Positions 43,066-61,000 of a DNA stretch of 64,000 bases are shown here, piece by piece; positions within the stretch are counted from its first letter, which is position 1, and each line of letters begins with the position of its first letter. This DNA is from Romanomermis culicivorax (taxonomy: Eukaryota > Nematoda > Enoplea > Mermithida > Mermithidae), in the NCBI GenBank assembly GCA_963922205.1, contig CAWUHX010000321.1:186001-250000 (forward strand), given 5' to 3'. The notes under the pieces are model-generated. The model searched no databases and was not told where the DNA came from. It saw only the letters and a program-made list of their open reading frames with translations. A program made the position numbers and the translations under genes.

Positions 43066-46000
43066 GTAAGCGCAAAAGTTTTTGGGAGTGAAAAGACGAC
43101 ACAGAAGTCCTAGCCATGCGTGTATATAACGCAACTCCCAGGTTTGTGATGGGATCAGGCGACTCTTTGTATGGGTGCGGTCGATTGTCCAAAATTTCAT
43201 GGGTGTTTTATTACAAATTGAAAATTGTATGTTTTTTCGCCCAAATGTCCGAAAAGTATGTGGTTTTTGTTTACAGAACCTGAAAAATTGATATATCTTG
43301 TATAGAAACCGAATTTGTATTTGGGAAACGTACTTTTACAAGTGTACACTTTCGTGTGAAAATCATACGCTTCGACTAAACATTGAAAGGTCTACAAGAT
43401 GTTTCGTATCTCCTTTAGTACTAATCACGAAATACTTTTGGTTAGACTGCTTACCTGTTGGACCTCCAGTCGATTGAGGGAAGGTAAAACTCAAATTTGG
43501 GGAGTGAGTCCCAAAATAGACGAAAAATAGTCAGAATTTCTCCAAAAACCTTAAAGGGTCATACATAGTTTTTTAGCGTTTTACAAGCCATGGCTTGTTG
43601 GACTGACAAAATGGCTTGTAGAATTTTAGTCCAACAAGCCAAAATGGCTTGTCATAATGTTCTGAATCATGTGTTTGATCACATCGGATGCAGAAAAGAT
43701 GCATTTTGGTGCATTTTAGAAGGCCATAATCTCAAAATTTTCCGGCGCTTCGCGCCGGTTATAACTTAAAAAGCATTATTATTTATTTCCTAGCTCAGGC
43801 GCCGCTTCTAACATGTCTACCTTCACTTATCATTTAATTTTTAATAGTTTTAATCATTTTAAACGTATCATCTCATGTTTTAATTGGTAATCTTCAATAT
43901 TTCATCTTGATATTTAATGAAGATTAACATTTTTTGAGAAAGATCGATACATCAAGTCTGTAAACTTTTTGAAGCGATTATTACTTTCTTAACGTAAAAT
44001 CAATCCAAAAGCTTCATGGAAGTAGTTTTCGGAAATTTCTACTCTTCTTACTCATATCTTTTCGGCCAAGTTCATGAGAGTTTGTGGATAAATTAATGGT
44101 TCTAAAATTTTTCAAATATAAAATTCTAGAAATTACGACTTTTGAACACAAAATTCAAATTTAATTCTTCAAATAAGTGTTTGGAAAATTGATTTTCCAG
44201 CATCGTAGAATGTCGATACCCAAAAACTTTTCTCCTGTGTTTCACGCAGGAAAGATTACTAGCTTTTCTGGGCTCTCAATTGTCATCATAAAAGACTTGA
44301 CTGTCGATGTCTCATGTAATTCAAAGTCATTGTTTCCTGAATTTTGATGAATTAACGGCTCTAACATGTTATTGAATAAATGTTGAATGACATCTCTTTT
44401 TTGATCGATTGCTGTGATGCTCAATATATATACATTTCTTTGAAAAATAACCTAGCATTGGAATTTATCCACGTATACTGATATTATGAAATTGGCTTGT
44501 AAAAATTTGAAATGGCTTGTAAAATTTTAGGTCAACAAGCCACTTGGCTTGTGACTCGTAGGTCAAAAAAAAACCTGGGGTCATAGAATAGCCAAAAATT
44601 TCCGAAAAATCCGAAAACTTTTCCATAAAAAGTCAAAAATGTCATTTTTCCCCAATTTTCTTGAGATGAGAAAGGATCCCAACTCCCAACACCTGATTTT
44701 TGAGTCCGACCGAGTTGGGGTTAGGGCCCCAACATTTGGGTTCTAGGTCCGACCGAAACAGGAAAAAAGGGTCTCCCTAATTACAGGTATACAGCTTATT
44801 TTTCCATTTCATAAGCTGAAGAAAGTCTGATTTTCTACATTGAGGTGAGATAGGTAATGTAATCGAAATAAAAAAACGATTTGTAGTATATGAGTGAATC
44901 CAATCGACTCATTCTTAATCGTCAGACATAAACTGAAGCCGCAAGCTGTAATTGCATTTTTTGGCTTGCAATATCATGGAAATGTAATTTTTTCACCGTT
45001 TCACCGTGGGTTTTGTGTCGAACAAAGATGACTAACATACTTAAATGTACATACATGTACATTTGTGCATGTACATAATGTACATAACGGAGGTGGAGCT
45101 TCAGGGTCGCGACTGGCAGGCGACTTTTTTGTGAATGGCGTCGGGGTTCCACAAGTCAGATATTTCGATAAAGGTAGAAGTCAAAGTCCGTTGGGGAGGT
45201 GTATTAAAATATTGGCTTGAACAAACATTTTCCTGCAAAGTTGAATACCCAGTGATCTTTTTTAACATCTATTTTATAAAAACGTTCATGTTATTTTCGC
45301 CCCATACGCCCAAAATACATCTTAAAAACCGTCGACTGGCTTGCTTAGAGGTTTTCTGGCAAGCGCTGGACTGAGAAGTAAGTTAACGAGACTAGCTTCG
45401 GAAAAATGCATGTATTCACTTGAAAAAGTAAACGAGTTTGAATTACGATATTTCTTAATTTGTGGTAAATTGAAATTGCTGACGTATGACGAAACTTCTA
45501 TAACTGAAAAGTGGAAACTTCATCATGTTGTCAGGTTCGTTGCATAAATATCCTAAAGCACATTTTTCACCGAATAACTACACTTTAGTGTAGCTAGACC
45601 TTGGCTATGATAAGTTAAAAATTGAATCATACCCTAACCTGGAGTACACTGTGTGATTTCACGTGCTGAGTATCATCCTGGGATTTATTCTACATTAAAT
45701 TCAAAATTCACGTAGCTACGGTATTATAAACTTCGGAATTTTTCAATTTTTTAGCATTTTATATTATGTATACGTGGCGATCCAAGATATCAATGTATAG
45801 AAAATACATAATCAATAATATGCAGGATTCCGTATAGTTTGATTTGAAAGAAAATTCATAATTTTGAATTTCACGCGTTTTACGCTTTATTAAAGTGTCC
45901 AAGTAGAAAGATCATTTGCACCCCTTTCGGGGCACCTCATCGGATGCCGCGGAATCTTTTTTCCGTCATTTTTGCAGGCACTAACGTCCAACATATTATG

Positions 46001-58000: not shown

Positions 58001-61000
58001 AGATATTTTTTCTGTGGAATGTCATTTCACACATATTCATAGGTTTAATTATCGGATTTTGGGGCCCATTTTTTCGACCAGTGAGATTTAATTGTCCTGA
58101 TCGAAGAATATCTAAAACTCATGAGAAATGTTTCGGGTAACATTTATTTCGTTGTACGTTATGGATTTCTCAAAAGATTTGATTTTCATATAATTTTCCG
58201 AAATAAGAAATAAAGAAACAGAAGGCAAAACCGACAAAAAAACAAAAGAAGAAGCACAGCTATGTAAGCTATTCAGAACAGAAACGCGTTTTAAAGAATT
58301 TCCACACATGGAAAGATTTTTTTATCCTTTACACGATTGTGGAAAGTATTTAGTAGGAAGAACAACGGTTGATTCTCGATAGAGAATTGAAATAGATTTA
58401 CTTTAATATGTACTAAAACGAAAAATGTAGCAGCTATAACCGTTTTGTGAAGATAAGAACATAGAACTGGAAAAAAATTTATTTTAAAAACAAAAAAATT
58501 CATAATCGTAAAAAAGTTGAAAATATTTTAAAATAAATTTTGATATGAAATAAGTTTTTTTGTGATTCCAAAAATCCCAACTTCGGTTTTTTTGCATGAT
58601 TTATGAATTTTTTTTGTTTTTTTTCAGTCCAAATTGGATTAAATTTTTCTTTTTTGCACCAATTATTTCTAGTTGATTTTTTGGTTGGCACTGTCTTGCG
58701 AACAGGAAAACGTGACCATATGGCTTAAATCTGCCTTTTGTTTACACTTTTTTGTCATAATTTTGGAATTATGATTTTGGGTTCGGGAAATTTGAGGAAT
58801 TTTATTTTGAAAATCTGCTGGACACCATGCAAAACGTTTTTTTCCATTTTTTGTTTAACTCGTTATTTTTGACTCTTTTTGTTCAGACTTTCAATGTTTT
58901 TTCTTTTCCAAAAATCACTTTTGAATTGACTGCAAGAGAATGTCATTTTTTCTAATGAATAAAATGTTCAAAGTTTTTCTCAATGTCACGATACTGAAAA
59001 TTTTCCGTTTTTAATTGTTTTATGCTCAATCTGGCAAGATCTGTTCCTCCTGCTATTAAAAAATATAGATAGACAAATAAAAAATTCAAAAAGAATCAAA
59101 AGCATAAAAATAAATCCCTGACTTTGAATGCATTTCTCTCAAATTTTTTTCGATTGATAGAATGCAGAACTTTTGACCAACAGATTGCCAAATTAACATT
59201 ATTTTAAATTTTGATTTAAAATTGGTGTTTGATCACATGAAAAAAATTTAAAGGGCTAGACAATTGAGTATTTTCTCATCTACAAGTTGAAGTACTGAAA
59301 TATTCACATTTCGAAAGGGTAACATAGATCTTTTTTCTCATTTAAAATCTGTCGATTCTGGAAAATTTGACACAATGTCGAATAAAATCAGATTTAAAAA
59401 ATTGATAAGCTAACTGACGAAATTTTACAGAAATTCAAATGGCATATAGTTCGGATTTTATTCAATCATAAGTCTGTTTGTATGATTTTTTCATCGGAAA
59501 GTTGATATATTTATCTGAACTTAATATAAAGCTCCACACACAAATTAAAAAAGCAAGACTGAAACCAAAACCGTCAACTTTGAAAAAGTGTAAACCGAGA
59601 GCGAAATACCCAAAAAAAGTGAAACTTAAACATTCCTGATGAATACTCGTTTTTTCGTGCATGCATATTCAGACCACACATGTAATTGGGGCAGAAGTCT
59701 TTTGGTCGAAAAATACTGAAAAAGGTCCATTTTTTGATGAAAATGTCAATTTTGAACAACAAAAAACGGTCAATAATGTCAATTTTCTCGGCGCTCGGCG
59801 TCATGGATACATTTTTTACGGTTTTTTAGGCAAAAATTACTATTTTCTGAACCGTTTCCGGACTTTTTTGATAGAAAAATCGAATTTTTTTTTTCTTTGA
59901 GTCCCCTCCCCCAAAGAAATTCGTGCGAGGCGACATCCAAACCTCGGGCCCCGTTGCATGCATACATGTAAATTTGGGGGGGAGGGAAGTGCTATTGGAC
60001 ATACATGTACGGAGCCCCGAGGTCTGGGGCGGGAGGTTGAGCGACTTTTTTGGGGCCGGCGGTCAGTAATTCCCAAAATTTTGGGGCGAGGGGTCTCTCA
60101 AGGAAGAAGAAATTCCATTTTTTCACGAAAAAAGTCCAAGAAATAGTTCAAAAAATAGTAACTTTTTACAAAAAAAAGACCGCCGAAAAAATGTATCCAT
60201 GGCGCGAAGCGCCAAGAAATTTACATTTTTACCACTTTTCAATCAAAAATTGACATTTTTAATCAAAAAATGATGTTTTTAATCAAAAAATTGACATTTT
60301 TTAGTATTTTCCTACCAAAAGTATGGGAGTCCCTACGGCTACCGTATGGCTAGCCATTGGATTGGAAAATTCTGGGGGGCGGTCGCCATGTGGCTAGCCA
60401 TATGGTCGACGATTTCTGGGGGTGGGTTCCCATAGCACTTCCTACCCAATTACATGTATGCTATGGCAACCCCCCAAAAATCTTCGACCATGTGGCTAGC
60501 CATTGGACGACTCTCCCCAGGATTTTCCAATCCTATGGCTAGCCATATGGTAGCCCTAGGGACCCTCATACTTTTAGTCAGAAAAATACTGAAAAATGTC
60601 ACTTTTTTCATGAAAAGTGTCAATTTCTGAACAAAAAATAGTCAACAACGTCAATTTTCTCGGCGCTTCGCGCCATAAGTACATTTTTGTCATGTTTCAG
60701 ACAAAAATTACTATTTTTTTGACCGTTTTTCAGACTTTTTTCATGAAAAAATCGAATTTCTTTTTCTTCAGAGACCCTTCCCCCCAAAATTCTGGGAATT
60801 ACTGACCTCTGGCCCGGAAAAAGTTCTCCGACACCCCCCCCCAGACCTCGGAGCTCCGTACATGTATGGTTGCATGTATGATTCAAAATCTCATTTCATC
60901 TGTAGAACAGGGTACGGGAGCACCGCAATACGATTACCAAATTGAAAATTTTGAATATTTGCGCCGCGATGAGGTACGATTTGAAATAGATTCGTTCAAA

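Follow-up and report, generated by a model that had tools for sequence, protein, structure and literature searches.

The genome assembly of the mermithid nematode Romanomermis culicivorax (359.1 Mb in 595 sequences) contains a scaffold on which a sequence of about 7.4 kb, bearing the middle part of a FASTK-like gene, occurs twice, once on each side of a gap. We analyzed this locus in a window of 64,000 nucleotides (C321:186001-250000), to which all positions without a scaffold name refer. The original prediction for this DNA was that the pair is a false tandem duplication caused by an unmerged overlap of two contigs, with inward-facing adapters around a 100-N gap. The following features were found around the gap, where A and B denote the two copies:

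43960..51444, plus strand, copy A, the last 7485 bp of the left contig
51445..51469, minus strand, amplification adapter in reverse complement, 25/26 nt, at the left contig end
51470..51569, no strand, 100-N scaffold gap
51570..51585, plus strand, PacBio barcode bc1019, 15/16 nt, plus one T (barcode table in PMC7962047)
51586..51611, plus strand, amplification adapter, 26/26 nt, at the right contig start
51612..58967, plus strand, copy B, the first 7356 bp of the right contig

Genomic DNA of the left contig continues up to 51444 and is followed by the reverse-complemented adapter, which lacks one of its 26 nucleotides, and then by exactly 100 N. The adapter is the 26-mer AAGCAGTGGTATCAACGCAGAGTACT. 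The right contig starts with CACACTCTATCAGAT, a T and the full 26-mer, after which genomic DNA begins at 51612. Overlooked in the original prediction was that CACACTCTATCAGAT belongs to bc1019, listed as ACACACTCTATCAGAT in Table 4 of PMC7962047, and that the T behind it is a ligation T. Elsewhere in the window there was no exact adapter match of at least 15 nt. A is a suffix of the left contig and B a prefix of the right contig on the same scaffold, and the two are flush to the base once the adapters are removed; the predicted adapters, repeat borders and repeat sizes were all recovered exactly. The BLAST (Basic Local Alignment Search Tool) alignment begins two bases further left (43958/51610), because the final two letters of the adapter match genomic CT by chance. 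The overall identity of A and B is 94.9%. Apart from this pair and its arrays, the dispersed repeats within the 40 best self-matches of the window were approximately 68-85% identical and shorter than 1 kb.

The original prediction had suggested a screen of the assembly for the same adapter, and the adapter does recur. The exact 25-nt adapter core was found 562 times (255 forward, 307 reverse), whereas the core written backward, used as a control, gave 0/0. Directly in front of 318 of these cores (144 forward, 174 reverse) stand the last 13 nt of bc1019 and a T, the control again being 0/0. We inspected 30 of the places, and the adapter was flush with a 100-N gap in 24 and with a scaffold end in the remaining 6, as it is flush with both contig ends in the window.

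Additionally, we determined whether contigs overlap at other gaps, for which all ten adapter-bearing gaps listed on scaffolds C1-C2 were sampled and approximately 10 kb was fetched per side. Three direct overlaps were flush with both contig ends, at C1:545795 (1868/1873 bp, 99.15%, 1 substitution and 14 insertion or deletion (indel) events), at C1:2229801 (2291/2294 bp, 99.78%, 0 substitutions and 4 indel events, in a region with internal repeats) and at C2:2166190 (1306 bp, 100%). A fourth, at C2:939690, extended over 10.8 kb at 97.8%, its 10758 aligned positions including 91 substitutions (0.85%); it reaches exactly to the end of the left contig but begins 542 bp inside the right one. All four were found at gaps with an adapter on one side only. 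Mismatched left and right flanks gave an overlap in 0/110 combinations, and pseudo-gap cuts made elsewhere in the window, outside the overlap, were flush in 0/34. Inverted overlaps flush with both ends were found across none of the sampled gaps; C2:2166190 has inverted repeats near its gap. The repeats at C1:545795, C1:2229801, C2:2166190 and C2:939690 are themselves likely false duplications.

A and B differ by substitutions and by many single-base indels, beyond the length of the arrays, which the original prediction had overlooked. Outside the arrays we counted 91 substitutions in 6208 aligned positions (approximately 1.5%) and 49 indel events, of which 26 substitutions in 4071 positions and 25 indel events lie to the left of the arrays (43960-48080) and 65 substitutions in 2137 positions and 24 indel events to the right (49291-51444); the counts vary with the alignment, chiefly around 50250-50360 and 50700-51060. 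With these substitutions, the possibility that the copies are identical was rejected. The substitution rate by successive segment was 1.04%, 0.00% (45600-47050), 0.90%, 1.66% and 4.06% (50200-51444). In the segment 45600-47050 of A there were 0 substitutions in 1442 aligned positions, yet 12 single-base length changes, and such changes without substitutions are the mark of uncorrected reads and not of evolution. Three kinds of tandem array lie inside the overlap, the first delimited with Tandem Repeats Finder (TRF):

48102..48604, plus strand, TTTC array in A, 503 bp, 126.5 copies (TRF)
55711..56254, plus strand, TTTC array in B, 544 bp, 136.5 copies (TRF)
48667..48913, plus strand, 19-bp minisatellite in A, 12.9 copies; in B 56297-56487, 10.1 copies
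49109..49248, plus strand, ATTC array in A, 34.8 copies; in B 56683-56764, 20.8 copies

The first of these is the CTTT array of about 500 bp that had been offered as a reason for the failure of the assembler. The array and its size were confirmed, and the minisatellite and the ATTC array are likewise unequal in length between A and B. As a necessary cause of the failure the CTTT array was rejected, because the perfect 1306-bp overlap at C2:2166190 likewise failed to merge, although this overlap is possibly under the minimum that the assembler accepts. The array may be at most one contributor to the failed merge.

The FASTK-like gene would run across the gap, and its candidate parts are as follows:

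42585..43088, plus strand, candidate first exon, left of the overlap and once in the window, assigned by position and strand only, with no Pfam match
47397..47893, plus strand, candidate exon 2 in A, with putative ends; the frame breaks near 47746
49681..50043, plus strand, exon 3 in A, with putative ends, an open frame and a FAST_1 match (matched stretch 49931-50020)
57194..57557, plus strand, exon 3 in B, ends approximate, with the frame disrupted at three single-base length changes
62864..62953, plus strand, weak RAP-domain match, right of the overlap and once in the window

The FAST_1 match in A had an expectation value (E) of 1.4e-5 and 25.3 bits, just under the Pfam cut-off of 27.4, and the RAP match, downstream on the same strand, had an E of 0.021 and 15.2 bits, under the cut-off of 24.2. 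FAST_2 gave no match in the scanned stop-free pieces, which were those of approximately 32 amino acids or more outside 59643-60802. The FAST_1 exon lies in the shared stretch and therefore appears twice, whereas the candidate first exon and the RAP end occur once each in the window. This layout supports one gene, with its first exon on the left contig, a shared FAST_1 exon and its RAP end on the right contig, and bears out the prediction that the gene is single. The frame of exon 2 is broken at the equivalent site in both copies (near 47746 in A and near 55356 in B), in opposite directions, and over approximately 860 nt of candidate exons 2-3 there are five frame breaks in B and one in A. Because of these frame breaks and the length changes without substitutions, both contig ends, and B above all, look close to single-read quality, a depth that we infer.

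The 7.4-kb duplication is most likely an ordinary assembly error of a known kind, with no real gene duplication. From the assembled sequence, we give a probability of about 0.94 to an unmerged overlap of two contigs laid end to end, likely from two haplotypes and with read errors at the ends. The flush relation, the tags at both ends, the position of the same tags at gaps or scaffold ends in all 30 inspected places and the overlaps at other gaps support the original prediction of a false tandem duplication. Genomic DNA would have been amplified by the polymerase chain reaction (PCR) with a T-overhang adapter, after which a PacBio adapter barcoded with bc1019 would have been added and the molecules read, with the tags left untrimmed. 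Adapter and barcode identify the two contig ends as the ends of raw reads. The non-genomic tags kept on the end reads may have caused the assembler to reject the dovetail overlap of the contigs, and the scaffolder would have ordered both contigs correctly and put in the 100-N filler. A and B would stem from two haplotypes rather than from paralogues, with a substitution rate between 0% and 4% depending on the part of the overlap, and their poorly corrected ends, probably near single-read depth, would have given run-length errors and hence broken reading frames.

The same overlap could also have arisen within a single haplotype, with array slippage and read errors as the only differences and the CTTT array to blame for the failed merge, which is the original prediction in its simplest form. 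Single-base length changes are indeed abundant, and the overlaps at three other gaps belong to this type, having 0, 0 and 1 substitutions. However, the substitutions outside the arrays are numerous and clustered, from none in 45600-47050 to the maximum in 50200-51444, the rate of 0.00-0.05% in the three same-sequence overlaps is far below that of the window, and C2:939690 is a second divergent case. The assembly thus holds overlaps of both kinds, three nearly without substitutions and two divergent, and a single haplotype is an improbable source here. Because of the 1.5% substitutions, two haplotypes are most likely the best reading of the window; the source may instead be two individuals in a pooled sample rather than two haplotypes of one. 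A complementary DNA (cDNA) origin was considered for the tags, which would then be SMART or Iso-Seq primers instead of genomic amplification adapters, and the 25-nt core is the same as in the Iso-Seq primers printed in PMC11742667. However, the core was followed by a T and genomic sequence in 30/30 inspected places and in none by poly(T) or the GGG tail left by template switching, introns and dispersed repeats adjoin the tags, and the barcode and T precede the core. The cDNA origin was rejected on these grounds and has next to no probability.

Several observations weigh against an unmerged overlap and in part favor a real tandem duplication that takes in the gene or its middle exons and extends beyond the visible repeat, with its junction in the gap and B decaying. 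The 26-mer is presumably the PacBio ultra-low-input amplification adapter, and our literature search found no paper that ties this exact sequence to the ultra-low-input kit. At six of the ten sampled gaps the fetched 10 kb contained no overlap, and two of these, C2:1343661 and C2:2072873, have adapters on both sides, so that two-sided adapters do not predict an overlap. Of 22 cuts placed mid-flank in the fetched sequence, one produced a direct repeat that was flush, with 88% identity and inside a satellite array. The copies differ by 1.5% substitutions outside the arrays, and exon 3 of B carries three frame breaks. Over 47397-47893 and 49681-50043, with putative exon limits, the coding differences between A and B were 8 nonsynonymous and 2 synonymous, with a pN/pS (ratio of nonsynonymous to synonymous changes, each per site) of approximately 1.0; the probability of at least 8 of 10 being nonsynonymous is 0.022 if omega, the corresponding rate ratio, is 0.2. 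Such unconstrained-looking changes would fit a decaying paralogue equally well as alleles under little constraint, and for this reason a small probability remains for a decaying real copy. The original prediction had argued that a biological duplication would not end at adapters. The borders at the adapters fit an unmerged overlap, but they do not exclude a real duplication, because a larger true duplication with both contigs broken inside it would look alike. Against such a duplication stand the flush overlaps at three of the ten other gaps, with 0-1 substitutions, together with the near-flush one, the run-length changes without substitution over 1442 positions, which denote erroneous sequence, the broken frame of exon 2 in A too, and the gene layout, in which the middle occurs twice and either end once. 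A larger real duplication is unlikely for these reasons, and rather strongly so. The 88% flush repeat found in the cuts comes from a satellite-like array in the left flank of C2:3109744.

Comparable cases have been described. In Ko et al. 2022 (PMC9516828) false exon or gene gains are reported from near-identical pairs that share a scaffold and are separated by a gap, as in the window, and are ascribed either to single-base errors (homotype) or to haplotype differences (heterotype), both of which have a likeness here. Read errors alone do not account for the window, with 91 substitutions against 0, 0 and 1 in the three other overlaps, and 1.5% substitutions would be consistent with the heterotype. 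Ko et al. classify by read depth, linked reads and k-mers, whereas the window was classed from the assembled sequence; amplification adapters moreover remain on both contig ends here. The report on HiFiAdapterFilt (PMC8864876) similarly describes adapter-bearing reads that lead to truncated duplicates with an adapter at the contig end, and also to mis-joins and inverted duplicates. The Cutadapt sequences given there are not this 26-mer, and the duplication in the window is direct and spans a scaffold gap. In PMC11536531 adapters are concentrated at contig extremities and their trimming lets contigs merge, although the adapters there are from Illumina and the assemblies microbial. For the assembly of Lecanora helva (PMC12613986), the PacBio HiFi reads are described as contaminated with an adapter identical to this 26-mer; there, in contrast to the present assembly, the adapter was taken out with lima before the reads were assembled. 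For ultra-low-input libraries, PMC11460185 describes how PCR adapters and duplicates are removed.

The 26-mer was also found in public databases. In IMG/VR there were 114 stretches with the 26-mer, 110 of them at contig base 1; the remaining four were at base 3, flush with a contig end, near a contig end and internal, once each. In GTDB we found 12 stretches, all from metagenome-assembled genomes (MAGs) titled FRAM, and in 11 of these the adapter and its reverse complement directly adjoin each other within a contig (8 exact pairs; in the other 3 the partner is truncated or differs by one base). Among the top self-matches listed for these stretches, none was a repeat spanning the adapter pair. 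The back-to-back adapters in the FRAM MAGs are probably chimeric joins in public MAGs. Untrimmed adapters would accordingly give rise to contig ends or chimeric joins, and the direct duplication across the gap would come from the scaffolding step.

The segment 45600-47050 was also searched in the genome, and only A and B matched at 99% or more, the next best by score being 78% over its stretch among 131 reported partial matches. Since this segment is a dispersed element, the search shows no more than the absence of a third near-identical copy from the reported matches. A dispersed repeat of approximately 0.5-0.7 kb occurs in the window at 43693-44331, 26993-27494, 31678-32282, 33683-34390 and 35224-35866, with pairs 68-83% identical, and the left border of the overlap at 43960 falls within a copy of it. 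On the minus strand, pieces of a putative RB1CC1/ATG11-like gene lie at 9016-21856, with matches to ATG11 (E 1.1e-9 at 9016-9498), ATG17_like (5.4e-6 at 17862-18194) and a ubiquitin-like domain (4.8e-5 at 21443-21856); these pieces may belong to one gene. Rfam and transfer RNA scans of the window gave no matches.

In annotation, the 7.4-kb duplication should be treated neither as paralogues nor as an exon duplication. Hundreds of contig ends in this assembly bear these untrimmed tags, and direct overlaps at four of the ten sampled gaps, three of them flush at both ends, make gene counts and tandem-duplication calls near gaps suspect. Trimming of the 26-mer and the barcode, followed by re-assembly, should close many gaps at once. 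For the biology of R. culicivorax the finding is of little import, and it serves as a useful quality flag for its assembly.

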